DNA from: Leptonema illini DSM 21528
GTDB lineage: Bacteria; Spirochaetota; Leptospiria; Leptospirales; Leptonemataceae
Length of the DNA: 64,000 bases
NCBI RefSeq assembly: GCF_000243335.1
Contig: NZ_JH597773.1
Span: forward strand, 2,225,550 to 2,289,549
Direction: 5' to 3'
Notes under the pieces: generated by a model
The model's database searches: none
Told to the model about the DNA's origin: nothing
The model's input: the letters and a program-made list of their open reading frames with translations, nothing else
In this document: positions 53,270 to 64,000 of the stretch, piece after piece
How positions within the stretch are numbered: the first letter of the stretch is position 1
Layout: every line of letters starts with the position of its first letter
Program-made: the position numbers and the translations under genes

Positions 53270-55219
53270 CTACTCCATCTCTTCGGCTAACGTAATCAAG
53301 AAGTCGGCCGACGTCAGTTCGAAGATACGGCTTTTCGGCGGATTGATATAGATTCCGTGGTTGCCGTTTCCGTTATGTTCTTCGGCACTGATACGAACTC
53401 CAAAGCAGGATTCGCCGCGCTTTAAAGCGGCGGCACAGAGATCGCCGAAGCTGATACGCGAGGGAATGCTGCTCATATACAGCGAAAGCGGCTTGATGTA
53501 GATCTCGCTGCCTTCGGCTCCGAACAACTCGTCATAGGCCTTGAGCACCTCGGCCTCTTCCGATGCCTGGGCGTATATCTTCGAGACGAATTTATTCGAA
53601 ATAAGGAAGTCGCGAACGCCGACCTCCTGAATCACCTCAATGTTATTTGAATCGGCCACCTCGCTGATGAGCTGCGTGCGCACGTTCTTATTGCCCGAAT
53701 TCTTGAAGTAGTGTCGGAATTCCAGAAGCATCGCAATCGTCGCCGCATCGCGCAGCTCCGGGTCGCCTCCGTCTTCTTTTAAGAGAATGACGTTGTCGTA
53801 GAGTTCGGGCGTCAGCGAGTGCATGGCTGCGGGGTCGTGCAGATCCATCTCCTGAAGCTTCATCTGAATCCCTTCGTGTCGCCCCCTGATCTCTTCGAAT
53901 TCGGCGCGCATCTCGTCGCTCATCCGCGGAACGACGACGACGATCTCTGATCCCGAAGCCAGATAGTCGGAGTATTCGTCGACAATAATCGCCGACTTGC
54001 GGCTCCAGCCAACGATAAGCTGTCGCTCGATCCGTCGCGGAGGAGCGGCGTGCCCTGGCTCGGTCGGCGTCGTCGCCTTGATCGCAGTTTCAAGATACCT
54101 TATATCGGAGTCGTCTTCGGCGATCAGAAGAAGCTCCCATGCGTCATCGATCACCGTGCTCGCCGGAGGATTGGCCACGACTTCGCCGTCGGGCTTGCGG
54201 TATCCAATCACTGAGCTTGTAGCGAAGTGAAAGACGAGGTCGCCGTAGGTTTTCCCGCCCCATCCGCGCGGATTCTTATAATAATAGAATTCGCAGCCTT
54301 CAAAGCCGACAAGGTTATCATAGACAAAGGCGAGGCCCGGAACTCGCGACGTCTGCACCATCAGCTTGGCCAGTAAAGACTGCTCTTCGATTACGTTTAT
54401 CTGAGGAGCGATGCCTCTTGCCAGCTTGCGCTTATTCTCAAGATGAAACTCGGCAAGGATGGGCGGCACGTTCGCCTCACCGGTGCAGGCGATGATGGCC
54501 ATGATCGTTTTCAACACACGGGCATCGGCAAGCTCCTTATCGTCGTGCTCGGCGTCGGCGGCGACGTCGTTCAGAATGATGATGCTTTTCGCGTCGATGA
54601 CGCTCAATCGCTCAAGCGTCTGCACGCTTGATGATACGCCCGATCGCGTGATGATGCGCGTCGACTTCGTATCTTCGATCTGCTCTCTGAAGAAGTCGTC
54701 CATGGCATCCTTCTCTTCAGCCGAAAGAACGACGATGGCCGCATCGCGCTCAGATTCGTTAGCCACGATAAGCTCACGCACGATTTCAAGAACGCGATCG
54801 CCGAAGCCCAGGATCAGCGTATGGCCTTTTTCGACGACCAGGCTGCGTCCTTTGCGCAGATCGTCGAGCTTCGCTTCAAACTGGCTGGTAATAAAGGCGA
54901 CAAGGCTCGAGAAGAGAACAAGGCCAAGAAAGATGGTTATAATGCCCATCACCTTATTCACGACGGAGCTATCTCCGTCTTCGGCGACGGCGCCGGCATC
55001 AGAGATCTGTAAGAAGACGCGCCAGAGCTGATCTGTCAGAGAGCCGACCGTCTCATCGGGCAGCATGAGATTCGCCACAAATCGGATGACGGCCATCAAA
55101 AGAAAAGCCGCAGCAAATAGGGAAAGCAAGGCCAGGAAGATGGAAAGGCCGCCCCCCGACATGAAATTATCGAATCTGTATTGTAATCGGGCGATCAGCC
55201 CCGGCCGTTTCTTCATCAA
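53270..55219 (-). CDS. Castor/Pollux-type ion channel protein with TrkA-like domains
   Basis: The 649-residue protein has two membrane segments (about 26-50 and 92-114) bracketing a pore-like region. A long cytoplasmic part follows with two RCK-like Rossmann domains (near 130-260 and 405-500). Signatures such as GHTLILGFGDRVLEIVREL and the RVPGLAFVYDNLVGFEGCEFY segment match Castor/Pollux (DUF1012) proteins, first known as plant nuclear cation channels. Ion selectivity cannot be read from the sequence. A small lipoprotein gene follows after 2 bases. Confidence 0.82.
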   Translation of the reverse strand: MMKKRPGLIARLQYRFDNFMSGGGLSIFLALLSLFAAAFLLMAVIRFVANLMLPDETVGSLTDQLWRVFLQISDAGAVAEDGDSSVVNKVMGIITIFLGLVLFSSLVAFITSQFEAKLDDLRKGRSLVVEKGHTLILGFGDRVLEIVRELIVANESERDAAIVVLSAEEKDAMDDFFREQIEDTKSTRIITRSGVSSSVQTLERLSVIDAKSIIILNDVAADAEHDDKELADARVLKTIMAIIACTGEANVPPILAEFHLENKRKLARGIAPQINVIEEQSLLAKLMVQTSRVPGLAFVYDNLVGFEGCEFYYYKNPRGWGGKTYGDLVFHFATSSVIGYRKPDGEVVANPPASTVIDDAWELLLIAEDDSDIRYLETAIKATTPTEPGHAAPPRRIERQLIVGWSRKSAIIVDEYSDYLASGSEIVVVVPRMSDEMRAEFEEIRGRHEGIQMKLQEMDLHDPAAMHSLTPELYDNVILLKEDGGDPELRDAATIAMLLEFRHYFKNSGNKNVRTQLISEVADSNNIEVIQEVGVRDFLISNKFVSKIYAQASEEAEVLKAYDELFGAEGSEIYIKPLSLYMSSIPSRISFGDLCAAALKRGESCFGVRISAEEHNGNGNHGIYINPPKSRIFELTSADFLITLAEEME

Positions 55220-55353: not shown

Positions 55354-56100
55354 TCACATCTTGCTTTCCAGAACGCGACCCTGCATCGGTTGCACGGGCC
55401 GTGCGTTCCCGTTATAAAACTGCTTGCGAAAACGCGAAAGCTGTTCGGGTGAGGCGGTGACCGTTCGTCGCGCCACGCTCCAGAGTACGCCCTCGGAACA
55501 GGGAGGCGTCGTCAGCGATCCTGAGTATTGATAATAGCCCGTTTGCGCGGGAAGCAGTGTAGCCGGCTGAAACGTTGCGGCCAGATCCTTTTCCTGCCCG
55601 GCGGCATCGGGAAACGACTGTAGCAGGGACTCAAGAGCGGCCGATGCCGTGCCTTCCTCGAAAAGCACGCCGATCACGGCAAGTGAGCCGGATGAACTCT
55701 TATGAACAAGATGCACCTCAAGAGGATAGGCGCGCCCGTTGATCTTATGCTCGGACGGCGCATGAAAATGCAACTGCAACAGCTCGTATCTTTGGCCGGC
55801 AATCACGGCGACGCTTGGTGCGGAGTTATTCAGCTGCACGGTATGGCCGTTATTCAACGTCTTCATCGCCGTCGGCTGATACTGAATCATGATATCGGAT
55901 GCGCCGGTCGGTCGCGCCATAAGAGGCTGTATATCAATCGGAGATTGGTTCTTGCCCGTAGAGCAGAGTTTAAAGTCATCCTGTAACTCACCCCATTTCT
56001 CGGGACCGCCATGACCGCTATAACTCCAGTGAGCGTGGTCCTTTGTTCCGTGGCATTGCAGCAAAAGCACTGCAAGCATTGCAATCAACAGTCGTTTCAT
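55354..56100 (-). CDS. Alpha-class carbonic anhydrase lipoprotein
   Basis: The enzyme interconverts CO2 and bicarbonate in the periplasm or at the surface. The 248-residue protein has a lipobox Leu-Leu-Gln-Cys (Cys16). The alpha-CA signature is clear: NQSPIDIQP, zinc ligands in LQLHFHAPSEH and EVHLVH, and the C-terminal GSLTTPPCSEGVLW. It is flanked by the ion-channel gene and a CPBP protease. Confidence 0.93.
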   Translation of the reverse strand: MKRLLIAMLAVLLLQCHGTKDHAHWSYSGHGGPEKWGELQDDFKLCSTGKNQSPIDIQPLMARPTGASDIMIQYQPTAMKTLNNGHTVQLNNSAPSVAVIAGQRYELLQLHFHAPSEHKINGRAYPLEVHLVHKSSSGSLAVIGVLFEEGTASAALESLLQSFPDAAGQEKDLAATFQPATLLPAQTGYYQYSGSLTTPPCSEGVLWSVARRTVTASPEQLSRFRKQFYNGNARPVQPMQGRVLESKM

Positions 56101-56174: not shown

Positions 56175-57554
56175 TCAAAACAGCAGCTGCATGAATAGGA
56201 AGGCCAGTCCGTTGACGATCATATGTGTGACGATGGGGGCGACGATTCCAGGACGATGCTCTCGCAGAATGGCAAGTCCCGCTCCAAGTACCGTAAGCTG
56301 AGGCATAAGCACGGCGCTGTATGGATGAATGACAGCGAAAAAGAAGCCGCTGAAAAGCGCTGCAAGAAATCCCTGGAACCGAAAGCGAAAGAAGCCATAG
56401 ACGAAATTCCGAAAGATCACCTCTTCTACGATCGGCGCGATCACAACGGCGAGCAGAAAGACCTCCAGACGATGTCCATCGACATACTGCACGATAGGAT
56501 GCACGGAAGGCACTGCCTCGCCTCCGGCAAGCGTAACGGCAATCAATGTGGCAAGAGCGCCCACGGGAAAGATCACGGCCCAGGCAACGATACCGACACC
56601 GATCTCTTTAAATAAAGACGGCAAAAACGGACGCTGCGTAGGAGCGGTATCATTCTCTGATGAGACCTGATCAAATACGGGAACCCAGAAAAGCCAGCGC
56701 AGCATCTCGGGCCTTGTTTCACTTTTAAAATAAAGAAGGGAGATCAGGAAGGCTGCCGGGATCAAAACAAAATTAAACGGAAGCATCCACTGCTCGCTTA
56801 AAAAGCGCGAAAGGATCATGCCGACCGGAAACATGACGAATAAAAAGAGAATCGCCGTTTCCATGAAAACGGGTTGCTGCGCCGGCTTCACCGTATCAAG
56901 GAAGCGGCCGAAGTATGCCGGCGGTCGGTTAAAGAAGAATCGCACCGCTCCATAAAGCCCCAGAGTGATAATGAAAAGAAAGACGATACTGCCGATGTTA
57001 ATTGCGGTGAGCAACGATGCGGCCTTTTCTTTCACCTTTTTATGCTCTATCGCATAACGCTCGGGATCGTTTCTCTTCAAATAATCCAGAACGGCAAGCT
57101 CCGTCGCCGGCATAGTCAGAATAGCGTCTCCCTCAGATGGTAGAGAACGGTCGGCATAGAGATTCTGAAAGGCTTCTTTATAAGGGCCAAGGCTCTTTTC
57201 ATCATAACCGCCGATGTCTTCGCCGAGATGAGCCAGCACCATTCGCTTCTGCACCTGCACCTCTGGAGTACGAAAGGCCGGCTCACTGTCGATGGATTGT
57301 AACTGCCCGACAATGGCATTCTTGAGAACAGTCTTTTGTTCTTCGGTTTTCGCTTCGTCAATGTTCAGAGCTCCCGCTGCAATGAACTTGAAAAACAGAT
57401 CGCTCTGCGTCTTTGTAAGATCTTCAAGTACGGCACTATCGGTCTTCGGCTCGGGACGCAGAAAGAACGAACCGAATACGGCCAGGAAAAGTATGAGAAA
57501 AGTAACGCTTCTGAGAATGCGGTCAGCGACGGGGGGATCTTTTTCCACTGTCAT
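56175..57554 (-). CDS. CPBP-family intramembrane metalloprotease
   Basis: The protein has 459 residues with about eight hydrophobic helices. The CAAX/CPBP motif PIVEEVIFRNFVYG and a downstream His-containing helix FAVIHPYSA and THMIVNGLAF form the predicted active site. The large extracytoplasmic region (about 35-180) between the first two helices is unusual. Its ATG has GGAG upstream and lies 32 bases inside the end of the PseG-like gene. Confidence 0.85.
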   Translation of the reverse strand: MTVEKDPPVADRILRSVTFLILFLAVFGSFFLRPEPKTDSAVLEDLTKTQSDLFFKFIAAGALNIDEAKTEEQKTVLKNAIVGQLQSIDSEPAFRTPEVQVQKRMVLAHLGEDIGGYDEKSLGPYKEAFQNLYADRSLPSEGDAILTMPATELAVLDYLKRNDPERYAIEHKKVKEKAASLLTAINIGSIVFLFIITLGLYGAVRFFFNRPPAYFGRFLDTVKPAQQPVFMETAILFLFVMFPVGMILSRFLSEQWMLPFNFVLIPAAFLISLLYFKSETRPEMLRWLFWVPVFDQVSSENDTAPTQRPFLPSLFKEIGVGIVAWAVIFPVGALATLIAVTLAGGEAVPSVHPIVQYVDGHRLEVFLLAVVIAPIVEEVIFRNFVYGFFRFRFQGFLAALFSGFFFAVIHPYSAVLMPQLTVLGAGLAILREHRPGIVAPIVTHMIVNGLAFLFMQLLF

Positions 57555-58461
57555 TCCATAACTCCTCGACGGTTCGAACCAGGCTGCGCAGTCCAGGACG
57601 CTCTATCACATCCTTCCTCCATGCCTGCACGTCCACGGAAAGGGAGCGCGCCATGGCGTCGAGAATCATCCCGGCCGTGGTGCCTTCCCGTCGTTCGACG
57701 GACCGGAACCAGCGAGCGCCCGTTTTACGCGACAGATACTCGCTCAGCCGGTCGTGCACGGCCGATCCCGTTTCGAGCAGTACAGGGTTTGCACCAAGCA
57801 CCATCGCCTCCCAGAAGGTCATGCCCGGATACGTCAGAATAATATCGGTATCAAGCAACAGATCAAGATAGCGCGACCTCGTAAGGTAGGCGATCGTCGA
57901 AAGCCCGCCGGGCTTGCCCCCGACTCTTGTATAGAGAACCGAATCGTCCCCCGTCATGGAGGCGTCGATCTCATCGATCATCGTCGCATCCATGAATCCC
58001 TCGGGGCCGGCATAGAACGTTATCCGCGCAGCTCCGGGAAGCGCGGGTCGTCGCGGTCGGGCGATTCGCTCCGTTACCTCATCGTCAAAAAGGATGCGCC
58101 GGAAGATCTCGTCAAAACGATCGTCCAGCTCAGGATGCGGAAGCGTGTCATAAAAGACAATGCCACTATCGGCCGTTTTTCTTCGAGCATGCATGTTATC
58201 GATCGCAAGCACCCGAGTATCGCCAAAGGCTCCGGGGTCCATGTCTCTCGCATCAAGGATCAAGAGATCGACCGGCTCTGCGGCGACGATCTGCCTGGCC
58301 TGCTCTTCATCGTCGGCGATCATTCGCAGATGGCAGGGCATGCCCTTTTCATCGAGATGGCGCTTCAGCCTTTCCATACGCACCCTGTGCCCTGCTCCGG
58401 AATCAAGAGCAAGGATAAGGATGCGACGATCAGCCCCTGTCGAAACGTAGTTGTTCCACAT
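57523..58461 (-). CDS. PseG-like nucleotide-sugar hydrolase/glycosyltransferase
   Basis: With the ATG at 58461 it has 312 residues. The GT-B-like N-terminus (RRILILALDSGAGHRVRMERL) resembles PseG, which removes UDP from a sugar in pseudaminic acid synthesis, and the C-terminus (TYPGMTFWEAMVLGANPVLLE) resembles GT28-type enzymes. The PseG GxGHxxR motif is partly kept (GAGHRVRM). It overlaps the SpsF-like gene by 32 bases. A glycosylation role is inferred from the SpsF-like neighbour. Confidence 0.65.
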   Translation of the reverse strand: MWNNYVSTGADRRILILALDSGAGHRVRMERLKRHLDEKGMPCHLRMIADDEEQARQIVAAEPVDLLILDARDMDPGAFGDTRVLAIDNMHARRKTADSGIVFYDTLPHPELDDRFDEIFRRILFDDEVTERIARPRRPALPGAARITFYAGPEGFMDATMIDEIDASMTGDDSVLYTRVGGKPGGLSTIAYLTRSRYLDLLLDTDIILTYPGMTFWEAMVLGANPVLLETGSAVHDRLSEYLSRKTGARWFRSVERREGTTAGMILDAMARSLSVDVQAWRKDVIERPGLRSLVRTVEELWNDSGKRSPRR

Positions 58462-59167
58462 CACGATTGCCTTCAAATAAACCAGGCATGGCAAGAAACA
58501 GATCAAGTAAGCCGATCAAGGAATCCTCTTCAAGCCTTTCCGCCACGGCGACCAGCGTATCATAGTCGCGCCGCTCGTCAACGGTCAGACGGGGAAGCGG
58601 GCCGCCATACTGCGTTCGCCTGCGCCAGGACATCATAACGGGCGACGACTCATGCAGCACGGCAAAGCGTTCAGGATGATGCTTGATATGCAGGCTGACA
58701 TGCTCCCGGTGTATATCCTTTTCTTCTGGCGTGTCCGTCATCAAGGCCTGCATCGTGAAAACCTCCACGGCCGCTCCAAGAGGAAGATCGGTAAAAGAGA
58801 ACAGCTCGACGCCGACTTCCTTCATACGATTCAAAGAAAGGACAATATGATCCGGATCCGTAAACGGATTGTCGGCCGTTGCCCGCACGATCACATCAAG
58901 ATGCAAGGCAGTCGCCGCCTTACGATACCGCTCCCGCACATCATGCTCGGGCCCTGTAAGAAAAGGCAGCTTTTTTTCGACAAGATGCCGCCTGAGGTCT
59001 TCATCATCATCGGGAATAAGGAAGTAACATTGAATACCAGAGCGCGCAACTTGAGAGTAAACGCGCTCAACTACAGAGAGGGAAATCCTGAACGGCATCG
59101 GCAAAAAGCATTTTCCCGGCAGGCGGGTGGAGCGGCTTCGCGCCTGTATCAATACGGCGGCTTTCAT
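58430..59167 (-). CDS. SpsF-like cytidylyltransferase (acylneuraminate type)
   Basis: The 245-residue nucleotidyltransferase begins KAAVLIQARSRSTRLPGKCF, the NTP-binding signature of the CMP-NeuAc synthetase/SpsF family. It also has the TADNPFTDPDHI segment and TDLPLGAAVEVFTMQAL. It probably activates a sugar acid or similar sugar as a CMP/CDP derivative. It overlaps the spiro-SPASM gene by four bases and the PseG-like gene by 32, so the three should act together. Confidence 0.82.
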   Translation of the reverse strand: MKAAVLIQARSRSTRLPGKCFLPMPFRISLSVVERVYSQVARSGIQCYFLIPDDDEDLRRHLVEKKLPFLTGPEHDVRERYRKAATALHLDVIVRATADNPFTDPDHIVLSLNRMKEVGVELFSFTDLPLGAAVEVFTMQALMTDTPEEKDIHREHVSLHIKHHPERFAVLHESSPVMMSWRRRTQYGGPLPRLTVDERRDYDTLVAVAERLEEDSLIGLLDLFLAMPGLFEGNRDVEQLRFDRG

Positions 59168-60690
59168 GCGTTAAAGAAATACCAGTCGTCGCATGAGGCA
59201 CATTGCGGCAACACGCTCTCATACTCGCCCTTCATCCATGAGAGATGCAGATTGCGTCGCGACTCAAAGACCGAGAGCAGATCGCTCTCGCGCAGGGTCG
59301 GGCCTCCAGAAAGCTTCTGTCTGCATACAGGCATCTCGCCCTTTGCATTAATAAAGAAATCAAAGGCAAGATGACGGCAGTAATCCCTGTTCAGAGGACT
59401 GAGATCGACGACGTCCAGAGCGGGAAGAGCATCGCCGAAGCGACTGTATTTGCCGATCAGCGGCCGCACCTTATCGGCCGGGAAGCGTTTCATGAAGCCA
59501 TCGAGTTCTTCTTCATTCTCAGGCAGTCGGATCATCTCGGCGCAGACGTTTATCGCAACCGGATTCGCACAGATGGAATCAAGGAAGGAAAGAACGTCAT
59601 TCAGGCGGTCAACTCCCATCCAGCGGCGGTACTGCGCCTGTTTTAATGACGGCAGCCTTACGATCAACGTCATCAGCGACGGCGATCGCTGCGATCCCCC
59701 CGATCGTTCCGATAGATTCCATGCGGCGACTAACGAATCAAGCCGAGATCGAGTGAGGCCCACGCCCGGTGTCTCGATATAAAGAGCCTTCACCACATCG
59801 ATCGCAGAAAGAGCGGCGACAAAGTCATCCAGACCGGCATAGGCGAACGGATCACCCCGTCCGCCCAGACAGACGGTCACATCGTTCTCAAGCCGAAAAG
59901 CACGTAATGATTTCAGGATAAGCGACGCCTGTTCTTCGTCTAACGAATGCTTTTCAGTGGTCGGGTAGACTGTCGGCTGCACGGCCTGCTCCGTCGTGAG
60001 CTCGATCTCCAGATAAGACGGCTGTCGTCCGCAGAGATCCGCTTCAGAACGCACGACATCCGACAGCTGTTCGTGTACAAGGTCTGGGTATTTACGATAT
60101 ACACGAAGGGCACGATCGGCGGAACGGGCGTCCAGACAATCAAGACGCAGGCGATAGGCGCGCAGATCGGGCGTCGCATAATGCAGATCGATATCGACAT
60201 CCTGAATATTGCGAAAGCAGAAGGCTCTCAGCGCCTCAATCGTCGGCTGCTGCATGCCCTCCGGAGGCATATCGGTAAAAAGATCGCCCGATACGATATC
60301 AAACAGGAACCCCGGAACGGCCGTATCGGAGTAAGAATAATGCGTGCGGAACTTCAGATGGCGTTCGAGCATCTGCATGCCCTGCCTGACGTCAAGAAAC
60401 GGCACGATGCCTGGGAAAACGACGGCCACCTCATCAGCAGAGATGCAGCCATGCAGGGCAATCGCAATCGGACCGGAATAAGAACGAACGTTCACAGGGC
60501 CGATCTTCTCGTTGATCGCCGTCGCCAACCGCTCTGCCTGAGATGCGGCTGATACATTGCACAGTATATCAAGTTCCGGTTTATTCGATAGAGCGTGAAT
60601 AAAATCGCCGAGGCGTCTGACAGAAGACGCAAGCAGTTCCTCATGCAGAACGGGAGGCGTTTCCAGACAGAGGATAACCCTGTTCGTCAT
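59164..60690 (-). CDS. Spiro-SPASM protein with inactivated radical-SAM core
   Basis: The 508-residue protein is typical of spirochaetes. Residues 1-180 look like a nucleotidyltransferase fold: YSYSDTAVPGFLFDIVSGDLF resembles the matching loop of the SpsF neighbour. Residues 220-420 match a radical-SAM barrel (EIELTTE.., CLGGRGDPFAYAGL), but the CxxxCxxC cluster is replaced by Gln235, Pro239 and Tyr242 at the exact spacing. The C-terminal SPASM region keeps Cys438, Cys456, Cys497 and Cys500. Without the cluster it is unlikely to cleave SAM; a scaffold or SPASM-cluster role is possible. It overlaps both neighbours by four bases. Confidence 0.85.
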   Translation of the reverse strand: MTNRVILCLETPPVLHEELLASSVRRLGDFIHALSNKPELDILCNVSAASQAERLATAINEKIGPVNVRSYSGPIAIALHGCISADEVAVVFPGIVPFLDVRQGMQMLERHLKFRTHYSYSDTAVPGFLFDIVSGDLFTDMPPEGMQQPTIEALRAFCFRNIQDVDIDLHYATPDLRAYRLRLDCLDARSADRALRVYRKYPDLVHEQLSDVVRSEADLCGRQPSYLEIELTTEQAVQPTVYPTTEKHSLDEEQASLILKSLRAFRLENDVTVCLGGRGDPFAYAGLDDFVAALSAIDVVKALYIETPGVGLTRSRLDSLVAAWNLSERSGGSQRSPSLMTLIVRLPSLKQAQYRRWMGVDRLNDVLSFLDSICANPVAINVCAEMIRLPENEEELDGFMKRFPADKVRPLIGKYSRFGDALPALDVVDLSPLNRDYCRHLAFDFFINAKGEMPVCRQKLSGGPTLRESDLLSVFESRRNLHLSWMKGEYESVLPQCASCDDWYFFNA

Positions 60691-61703
60691 TTCCCCTGAG
60701 GCTCTCCGGGCTTTCGAATAACAAGATTACGCTTTCGCTCTTCGATCCAGCGTTCGAAGGATTCATCGGCTTTATCGTAGAAAAGCTGCATGCGAATCAT
60801 CTCGCGGATCTTCTCAAGAGAAACGGGGCGCTTCCCTTCAAGCAGAACGATGCGATATCGGTTCGTGCTATCGCGAAAGACGGGCGAAACCGCTCCTTGC
60901 GGAAGGTTATACAGCATACCGGCAAGCACGCGGTCTTCACGGGCCAGGTCATCGATGGGGATCCAGAGACGAATGCCGCCGCCGGCCTTAAACGGAGAAA
61001 CGTTCTCGGGAAGCGATCGCGCTACGTCACCGAAACTCGCCGGATTCGCCGATACCTGAGAATGGACCTGGCGAGCACGTTTGTCGATTTCTCGCTCGGC
61101 GGCAATCGTCGGAGCAACAGGAAAAACGATCTCGCGAAAGAGCAGCTCCACGCCGACACGATGAGCGTTCTGTTTATAGAACTTTTCAACCTCTTTTTCA
61201 TCGGGCTGCGGAATCGTCACTTTGATCTGAACGATCTGCTGTCGCACCATCTGATAGCGCAGGCTTTCCTTCCAGAGCCGGAACGAAACCTGCGTTTCGC
61301 GCTCGATGCGCGCCTTGAAGGCCTCTTCATCGGTCTCCTTTGCCATCTCCATGCGACGCTTGATCTCGTTATCAATGCGCTCATCGCTGACGACGATCGA
61401 CTCCTCTTCGGCGACCTGATCGACGATGGATTTTTCAATGAGGAAGTTCTCCACTTCTTTCGGAGTCGCCCGTCCCTGACGGAAGAGCTTCACCAGAGCG
61501 GAGCCGTCTTCGTAATCGATATCGGTGATCGGTCGTGTTCCGACAAGCAGACGAACGGAGTTGATGCGCTCTCCCTCGACGGTGCTCTTATCGAATTTTT
61601 TGATCTGCGCCTGCTTCTCGTCGGCAGAAGAACATGCAGAGGCGAAAAGCGACAGAGCAAGAAAAAGCAGCGATCTGAGAGGCAGCGATAGGAAACGTTT
61701 CAT
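60687..61703 (-). CDS. SurA/PpiC-type peptidyl-prolyl isomerase, lipoprotein
   Basis: The 338-residue exported chaperone has a lipobox Phe-Ala-Ser-Ala-Cys (Cys24). A SurA-like helical N-domain (about 45-170) precedes a parvulin-type domain (about 180-300: RVGVELLFREIVFP, PASFGDVARSLPENVSPFKAGGGI). It should help folding of outer-membrane proteins. It is 2 bases after carA and overlaps the spiro-SPASM gene by four bases. Confidence 0.85.
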   Translation of the reverse strand: MKRFLSLPLRSLLFLALSLFASACSSADEKQAQIKKFDKSTVEGERINSVRLLVGTRPITDIDYEDGSALVKLFRQGRATPKEVENFLIEKSIVDQVAEEESIVVSDERIDNEIKRRMEMAKETDEEAFKARIERETQVSFRLWKESLRYQMVRQQIVQIKVTIPQPDEKEVEKFYKQNAHRVGVELLFREIVFPVAPTIAAEREIDKRARQVHSQVSANPASFGDVARSLPENVSPFKAGGGIRLWIPIDDLAREDRVLAGMLYNLPQGAVSPVFRDSTNRYRIVLLEGKRPVSLEKIREMIRMQLFYDKADESFERWIEERKRNLVIRKPGEPQGK

Positions 61704-61705
61704 GG

Positions 61706-62791
61706 TCAGCGCCGTCCTGCGTAATGGGCGTCGACCATCCGGTAGAAATCGGCGAACATATGCAGCGAATCATGCGGCCCCGGACTCGCCTCAGGATGAT
61801 GCTGCACGCTGATCACGGGCCCCGCCGTGTCGCGAAAGCCTTCGACCGTCTGATCGTTCAGGTTCGTGTAGATGATGTCTAACCCTCCGGCGCCCGTCGT
61901 GTCTACGGCGAAGCCGTGGTTCTGCGCCGTAATCTCGACGCGTCCGGTTCGCACGTCGCGCACGGGCTGGTTACCGCCGCGGTGGCCGAACTTGAGCTTG
62001 TAAGTCTTCCAGTTGCGCGCAAGCCCGAGGATCTGATGACCGAGGCAGATGCCAAAGAGCGGCTTGCCCGAATCCAGAAGCGCACGAGTCGTCGTGATGG
62101 GCGTATGAAGCGGCTCGGGATCGCCCGGACCGTTCGAGAGAAAATAACAGTCGAATCCTTTCAGATCATCAAAGGACGTTCCGGCCGGGAAGACGTGGAC
62201 CTCGAATCCGCTCTCATTCAGGTAACGCAGGATAGCACGCTTTACGCCGAAATCAAGCACGGCGATCTTATAACGTTTGCCCTCGGTCGAGCCGAACACA
62301 TAGGGCTTCGTCGTCGTCACGACCGTCGCAAGATCCTGTCCGGTCATCGACGGAATCGAGCGCACTCGCTCAAGCATCTCTTGATTATAAGCGCCCTGAA
62401 AGATGCCGCCTCGCATCGCCCCTTCGTTGCGCAGAGTAAGAACCAGCTTTCGTGTATCGATGCCTTCGATGCCGGGAATGCCCTGCTCGATCAGGTAGTC
62501 GCCCAGAGACTGCTGCGAGAGATGATTCGAAGGGCGACGCACATATTGCTTCACCACAAATCCGGCGCACTGCACACGACCCGACTGATCATGCAACTCG
62601 TTCACGCCGTAGTTGCCGATCATGGGATAGGTCATCGTCACAATCTGTCCGCAGTAGGACGGATCTGTCAGGATTTCCTGGTATCCGCTCATCGACGTAT
62701 TGAAGCAGACCTCGCCGGTCGACTCCTGAGAGGCTCCAAATGATCGGCCTCGAAATATCAGGCCATTTTCCAGTACAAGAACAGCAGTCAC
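61706..62791 (-). CDS. carA: Carbamoyl-phosphate synthase small subunit CarA
   Basis: CarA hydrolyses glutamine and feeds ammonia to CarB for pyrimidine and arginine synthesis. The 361-residue protein starts with GTG at 62791 (GGAGG is 12 bases upstream). The N-terminal domain (FNTSMSGYQEILTDPSYCGQIV) and class I amidotransferase domain with catalytic Cys in FGICLGHQILGLA and His in VQHHPEASPGP are intact. carB is not in the window. It heads the coupled run that ends with the CPBP gene. Confidence 0.96.
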   Translation of the reverse strand: MTAVLVLENGLIFRGRSFGASQESTGEVCFNTSMSGYQEILTDPSYCGQIVTMTYPMIGNYGVNELHDQSGRVQCAGFVVKQYVRRPSNHLSQQSLGDYLIEQGIPGIEGIDTRKLVLTLRNEGAMRGGIFQGAYNQEMLERVRSIPSMTGQDLATVVTTTKPYVFGSTEGKRYKIAVLDFGVKRAILRYLNESGFEVHVFPAGTSFDDLKGFDCYFLSNGPGDPEPLHTPITTTRALLDSGKPLFGICLGHQILGLARNWKTYKLKFGHRGGNQPVRDVRTGRVEITAQNHGFAVDTTGAGGLDIIYTNLNDQTVEGFRDTAGPVISVQHHPEASPGPHDSLHMFADFYRMVDAHYAGRR

Positions 62792-62925: not shown

Positions 62926-63034
62926 AGGCTGGAAAGTGGAACAACGGCAATACCGGTCGGGCCGCTCTGCCCTCCGTGGCTCGCTTTCGGGCGAGAGTGA
63001 AGGGGCTGGAATGGGGGGCACTGGAATAACGGGC

Positions 63035-64000
63035 CCACCCGAGTCTGTCGAAAAACCTGAATCAATTCTGAATTCCCCTGGAAATTACCGGCCGGGTAGA
63101 TTATCGGGGAGCATGGCACGCTACAAACAGCCTGACTCTGATCAGAGCCAGATCGTTATCTTGAATTTCTCGGAGTTGTTTCCGGAGGATCATCCCATCT
63201 CCCGCCTGCTTGAGACGGTCCGGCGGCTAGATCTCAGCCGCTTTGATGCGAGTTACAGGAATGATTCGAAGCAGGGAGGTCGCCCGGCCATGCCGCCCGA
63301 CCGAGTTCTGGCTATCATCATCTATTCATTGTTGTATGGAAACCTTTCCATGCGAGCCCTTGAGCGAGATCTCGGACAGCGTGCAGATTTGATGTATCTG
63401 TCCGGTGGGATGGAGATGGATCATTCAACCCTCGGAAAGTTCCGGCTGAGGCATGCGGCAGCAATTCAGGAATTGTTCACGCAGACAGTGTTCCTCGGTA
63501 TCGAATCGGGATTCATCGATCTGGATACCGTCAGCATTGACAGCACAAAGATCAAGGCCAGTGCAAACAGACGGGATATAGGCACTCGCGAGGAACTTGA
63601 AAGGCGTTACGAGCATCTTGAATCTGTCTGTAAGAAACGCTACGATGAATGGGAGGCATCACAGAACGATGCAGAACAGGAATTACTGGCAAAGAAAATC
63701 CAACAACTGGAGATCCAGAAAGAGAAGCTGTCTCTGGGGCTGGAGTTCTTGAAATCCAGACCTGACCGAAAGCGAGTTCATCTTACAGATCCAGATGCAG
63801 ACTGGCACAAAGACGGATCCAACAGCTTCATCGTGGGTTATTCGGCCCAGAATGCAGTGGATTTCCAGAGTGGCATGATTGTTTATCAGGAAATTGTTAC
63901 GGGACAGAGCGACAGTACATTCACCAGTTCGCTTGTGAACAGAGTTGAGGGCGTAAAGGCGGAGTTCCTTCCCAAAAAAACAGACGAAATCAAATACGTT
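63035..64000 (+). mobile_element. Insertion sequence, left part (IS1182-like), truncated by window
   Basis: The transposase gene and its upstream end, probably near 63035-63060 (GAGTCTGTCGAAAAACC), form an IS of the IS1182/IS5-like DDE type. The terminal inverted repeat cannot be proved because the other end lies outside the window. Confidence 0.6.
63113..64000 (+). CDS. Transposase, 5' part (IS1182 family, DDE type)
   Basis: The first 296 codons run open to the window edge. The N-terminal DUF772-like part (about 10-115) holds GRPAMPPDRVLAIIIYSLLYGN and MDHSTLGKFR. The first catalytic Asp is likely in VSIDSTKIKASANRR (about residue 142). A coiled insert (165-215) and the VGYSAQNAVD segment follow. 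The frame is intact so far, so the element may be active. It sits next to carA, in the gap with the imperfect palindrome. Confidence 0.88.
   Translation, partial: MARYKQPDSDQSQIVILNFSELFPEDHPISRLLETVRRLDLSRFDASYRNDSKQGGRPAMPPDRVLAIIIYSLLYGNLSMRALERDLGQRADLMYLSGGMEMDHSTLGKFRLRHAAAIQELFTQTVFLGIESGFIDLDTVSIDSTKIKASANRRDIGTREELERRYEHLESVCKKRYDEWEASQNDAEQELLAKKIQQLEIQKEKLSLGLEFLKSRPDRKRVHLTDPDADWHKDGSNSFIVGYSAQNAVDFQSGMIVYQEIVTGQSDSTFTSSLVNRVEGVKAEFLPKKTDEIKYV

Follow-up and report, generated by a model that had tools for sequence, protein, structure and literature searches.

The spiro-SPASM gene of Leptonema illini lies on the minus strand of the window, as the 64,000-nucleotide stretch of DNA analysed here is called, in a run of four genes ordered PPIase, spiro-SPASM, SpsF and SpsG-like (Table 1). 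The first two junctions are 4-nt overlaps, and at the second of these the start of SpsF overlaps the stop of spiro-SPASM. The first-pass annotation had placed the gene in a tightly coupled operon, and the overlaps on either side of it, with PPIase and with SpsF, bear this out. The match of the protein to TIGR04321 is full length (profile positions 3-510 of 510), which makes it a member of the spiro-SPASM family. The SpsG-like gene was identified by its fold, as neither Pfam nor NCBIfam named it usefully; one of its homologues matches the PseG profile TIGR03590 at 4.1e-8.

Table 1. Features of the spiro-SPASM locus of L. illini (positions in the window)
Feature	Position	Strand	Details and basis
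SurA-like PPIase lipoprotein gene, directly upstream	60687..61703	-	TIGR04142, 211.9 bits, below the cut-off of 250
spiro-SPASM gene	59164..60690	-	508 aa, ATG start; TIGR04321, 460.2 bits against a cut-off of 250
Degenerate SpsF/cytidylyltransferase-like domain, residues 1-220	60031..60690	-	Fold and hhalign
Radical-SAM partial barrel, residues 222-430	59401..60027	-	BtrN fold match
Lost CxxxCxxC site, residues 235-242 (Q235, P239, Y242)	59965..59988	-	Sequence and family profile against BtrN
GGRGDP, residues 276-281, SAM-binding GGE-type motif	59848..59865	-	Sequence
Twitch domain, residues 431-508 (C438/C456/C497/C500)	59167..59400	-	CX12GX4C...CX2C
SpsF-like cytidylyltransferase, ARSRSTRLPGK intact	58430..59167	-	PF02348, 4.2e-16; 6oew, 2.5e-13
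SpsG/PseG-like GT-B protein, GxGHxxRM motif	57523..58506	-	Model pLDDT 82; MurG, Z 18.8

Similar neighbours recur in other spirochaetes. A PPIase-type cluster occupies the -1 position in 69 of 166 loci, and SpsF/SpsG-type genes, counted as one cluster that merges the SpsF and SpsG families and an intervening gene, stand just downstream in 141 of 166. This holds for 52 of 67 loci in which the radical-SAM CxxxCxxC motif is missing (motif-less) and for 89 of 99 in which it is intact. In Bacillus subtilis, the synthesis of legionaminic acid requires SpsG, and SpsF is needed to transfer the product to the spore surface (PMC7439481). An ATP-grasp ligase gene lies downstream, at +3 or +4, in 45 of 166 loci (for example L104:14668-16248). 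In Treponema putidum, spiro-SPASM is followed by a 317-aa protein, without a Pfam match, that looks like a GT2 glycosyltransferase, and then by an 880-aa ORF (L124:12332-14971) that joins SpsF (CTP_transf_3, 1.3e-29), an SpsG/PseG-like part and a class I methyltransferase; the same fusion arrangement was seen in a 1.14-Mb genome (L173). The motif state showed no link to the downstream GT2-like gene or to the methyltransferase domain (Fisher p = 1.0 each).

Elsewhere in the window, inspection by eye found a probable alpha-carbonic anhydrase lipoprotein (55354-56100, minus strand) and a probable CASTOR/POLLUX-like RCK protein (53270-55219, minus strand) downstream of the operon. The carA gene is at 61706-62791 (minus strand), and a DDE/IS1182-type transposase-like frame by it (62936-64000, plus strand; also by eye) runs past the window end.

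Domain architecture and the missing motif

An AlphaFold2 model built from a 54-sequence alignment (mean pLDDT 88.2, pTM 0.89) predicts a radical-SAM partial TIM barrel at residues ~222-430. Residues 220-508 of the model match BtrN (4m7t) with Z 21.3 and an rmsd of 2.6 over 229 of 246 residues at 15% sequence identity, followed by SuiB (Z 20), SkfB and MoaA (Z 18). BtrN, the 2-deoxy-scyllo-inosamine dehydrogenase, is also the top PDB profile match (4.6e-18), and it shares with spiro-SPASM a four-Cys Twitch site and, putatively, action on a sugar-like substrate. Unlike the L. illini protein, BtrN has its catalytic cysteines and carries no nucleotidyltransferase domain.

Compared to BtrN, the L. 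illini protein has lost the cysteines that would hold the catalytic cluster. The lead-in E230-L231-T232-T233 and the following P243 are kept, and Gln, Pro and Tyr stand at 235, 239 and 242, the columns that line up with the BtrN catalytic CxxxCxxC in a profile of 54 relatives. None of the 13 cysteines of the protein fall at CxxxCxxC spacing, and the barrel holds no other conserved three-Cys set. Within its own family, no cysteine column is conserved besides the four Twitch cysteines, and no His or Asp is conserved across residues 226-260 as a replacement ligand; E228 and E230 are conserved there. The first-pass annotation had described a radical-SAM scaffold whose three cysteines were replaced at exact spacing, with the GGxGDP motif and Cys 438, 456, 497 and 500 still in place, and in all of this the fold, the flanks and the remaining motifs agree with it. 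Neither outcome that would have spoken against it was seen, since no intact CxxxCxxC stands elsewhere in the chain and the model does have the barrel.

The name of the C-terminal domain has to be changed. The first-pass annotation called its cysteines SPASM, but the spacing C438-X12-G451-X4-C456 and C497-X2-C500 follows the Twitch pattern CX9-15GX4C...CX2C, as the two domains are defined by Cys pattern (PMC6231123). The seven-Cys SPASM motif (CX9-15GX4C-gap-CX2CX5CX3C-gap-C) is absent; there are only four conserved C-terminal cysteines, and the chain ends 8 residues past C500. From this pattern, one auxiliary Fe-S cluster site is predicted. A laboratory counterpart of the natural loss is the C16A/C20A/C23A triple mutant of BtrN, in which the three radical-SAM cysteines are replaced and the auxiliary [4Fe-4S] cluster is retained (PMC9012708).

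The N-terminal region was described earlier as a sugar-nucleotide domain attached in front. The fusion itself stands: 6oew, a cytidylyltransferase from Leptospira, matches modelled residues 1-227 with Z 16.9 over 218 aligned residues, consistent with a cytidylyltransferase fold, and hhalign relates the domain to SpsF at 99.0% (E 5e-18). The domain is, however, degenerate. Compared to SpsF-type cytidylyltransferases such as 6oew and B. subtilis SpsF, it lacks the P-loop-like nucleotide-binding signature RxxSxRLPxK, which the neighbouring SpsF retains as ARSRSTRLPGK, and is fused to a radical-SAM/Twitch region. Among spiro-SPASM homologues, 3 of 167 have the form [AS]RxxSxR and 0 of 167 have R[LF]PxK; among SpsF ORFs, [AS]RxxSxR is present in 117 of 165. 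The domain therefore probably does not itself make a sugar nucleotide. Two catalytic sites can thus be recognised as degenerate in the L. illini protein, which lacks both CxxxCxxC and the SpsF signature.

Recurrent loss of the motif and what is retained

Homologues were drawn from 60 graded relatives, 80 named genome loci and ~59 further genomes across genera. The motif was kept in 99 of 167 distinct homologues (~59%) and missing in 68, a proportion (41%) that does not give the frequency in the phylum because the sample is non-random. The L. illini protein matches TIGR04321 over its full length (460 bits) and differs from this ~59% in the loss. No motif-less homologue (0 of 68) carries CxxxCxxC elsewhere in the chain. 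In its own GTDB family the motif is missing in all 18 members in the tree; the sister family retains it. Turneriella, T. putidum (L124), the 1.14-Mb genome of the Treponema family (L173) and four members of family f14 (L053, L170, L181, L187) are also motif-less. Partial losses were found as well: the first Cys alone is gone in L117 and L122, and it alone is left in L126, L141 and L147.

A maximum-likelihood tree of 163 proteins, with the motif columns left out, requires at least 21 changes of state, or 23 if losses alone are allowed. CxxxCxxC was taken as the ancestral state, since it is found in the radical-SAM superfamily at large. After all branches with SH-aLRT < 95 were collapsed, 11 losses remained, and this is the figure to trust since the tree was a quick one under a single-matrix model. 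L. illini and at least ten other spirochaete lineages have thus lost the radical-SAM cysteines independently, and the question raised earlier of whether the loss is universal across spirochaetes is answered: it is recurrent, not universal.

Nearly everything else is kept. In proteins that have the motif, 31 columns are conserved at 95% or more. Of these, the three motif cysteines drop to 0.06, 0.03 and 0.04 in proteins without it, and the others stay mostly at 0.85-1.00. E306, K414, P432, R180 and the Twitch cysteines are at 0.96-1.00, D429 too is retained, and G279 of GGRGDP is kept in 90% of motif-less homologues; the most relaxed columns are Q385 (0.71), Q413 (0.68) and T505 (0.75). The four Twitch cysteines are intact in 163 of 164 homologues, so that the auxiliary-cluster site was rightly described as preserved; the cluster itself is predicted, and the activity that the first-pass annotation gave to this domain is putative. 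Close pairs inside motif-less clades have dN/dS of 0.08-0.27, and intact pairs fall in the same range (0.06-0.21). These low values show that the genes are not decaying, and together with the intact length they rule out a pseudogene. The protein can do without the radical site, but not without its fold, its Twitch cysteines or the degenerate SpsF domain. Since the motif was lost in many lineages with nearly all else kept, radical chemistry cannot be the essential job of spiro-SPASM.

Flagellin glycosylation and the possible role of the protein

Co-occurrence was studied in 80 genomes, each at least 90% complete. Spiro-SPASM was present in 60. Flagellin and Maf (PF01973) accompany it in all of these, and a strong NeuB match in 59; the exception (G070) has a short one of 36 profile positions. 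Among the 20 genomes without spiro-SPASM, Maf is missing in 19 and SpsG in all 20. Eight of them (family f38) have flagellin without Maf or NeuB, and nine (f49) and two (g94) have neither flagellin nor Maf. The remaining genome, G316, lacks spiro-SPASM and SpsG but carries Maf, NeuB and flagellin; its assembly is in 170 contigs, where a gap is possible. The Fisher p for spiro-SPASM against Maf, 2e-17, counts as about four independent loss events rather than 20 points because the genomes are related. In L. illini, the NeuB and Maf genes are not adjacent to spiro-SPASM. By strong association, spiro-SPASM is linked to flagellin glycosylation with nonulosonic acids (NulO).

Family f38 (G114 and others) has flagellin but no spiro-SPASM, SpsG, Maf or NeuB. 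This pattern suggests joint loss of the entire gene set for NulO flagellin glycosylation; these genomes appear to be Borrelia-like.

Similar genes co-occur with spiro-SPASM and in the flagellin NulO systems of Campylobacter and Aeromonas (NeuB, SpsF/SpsG or PseF/PseG, Maf), for which we know of no radical-SAM/Twitch component. The FlaB glycan of Treponema denticola is a NulO of pseudaminic configuration. The FlaBs of this species bear a 450.2-Da glycan without which filaments are not assembled (PMC9481697). T. putidum, a close relative of T. denticola, belongs to a motif-less lineage. In Aeromonas, Maf proteins are involved in the transfer of NulO sugars to flagellin (PMC4065374).

We lean towards spiro-SPASM being a platform subunit of spirochaete NulO flagellin glycosylation, with a radical step that is dispensable and repeatedly lost and a Twitch site that is kept. 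In such a subunit, which would partner SpsF/SpsG, the degenerate SpsF-like domain, fused to the BtrN-like radical-SAM/Twitch domain, would bind SpsF or a CMP-sugar. Proteins with an intact CxxxCxxC would probably also carry out a radical step on a sugar, for which BtrN-type oxidation is the closest model and which may have been the ancestral reaction. In Leptonema and many other lineages this step would have been lost, and the protein would persist for a non-radical role, perhaps structural or regulatory, that still needs the four-Cys Twitch site.

The main rival to the preferred platform mechanism is a non-radical, cluster-dependent reaction, in which the Twitch cluster is a working centre for electron transfer or non-radical sugar chemistry and the motif-less proteins are enzymes, not scaffolds. 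To our knowledge, no enzyme works from a Twitch cluster in such a way. The four Twitch cysteines are the most conserved feature of the whole protein, and E306, K414, D429 and P432 likewise survive the loss of the motif; however, the corresponding site of BtrN is fully ligated by its four cysteines and has a very low potential (PMC9012708, PMC6231123), and structure or electron transfer therefore fits better than substrate binding. This reading appears unlikely as it stands. The broader proposition that the essential function of the family is a non-radical, auxiliary-cluster-dependent step of NulO flagellin glycosylation, with radical-SAM chemistry an optional addition repeatedly discarded, may be entertained only tentatively, being a little less doubtful.

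The degeneration of two domains at once in the L. illini lineage, the operon with SpsF and the family-wide purifying selection would also suit a wholly non-catalytic adaptor for flagellin or SpsF, its four cysteines binding zinc or a purely structural cluster. The Cys spacing and fold, however, match an Fe-S Twitch domain, and pocket residues distant from the cysteines remain conserved, so that we regard such an adaptor as improbable. Far less credible is an intact radical-SAM partner giving the radical in trans, with spiro-SPASM as its substrate-binding half. The L. illini genome encodes ~20 Radical_SAM matches that could serve, but no second spiro-SPASM copy was found in it, the conserved neighbourhood contains no radical-SAM gene, and for the two operon genes compared, content did not differ with motif state (p = 1.0).

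Spiro-SPASM is a phylum-wide, named protein that has apparently had no dedicated study. In the literature open to search without subscription, no paper found names TIGR04321 or spiro-SPASM, and none joins the SPASM domain, radical SAM and a spirochete; the viral contigs searched held no relatives. In many species, annotation pipelines that presume radical-SAM activity for spiro-SPASM proteins would be in error, and a motif-less copy was found even in a 1.1-Mb Treponema-family genome. Auxiliary clusters of radical-SAM enzymes are normally viewed as assisting the radical site. Here the radical site was removed many times and the auxiliary site kept, which makes an independent auxiliary role directly testable in natural mutants, and spiro-SPASM gains a likely place in flagellin glycosylation.
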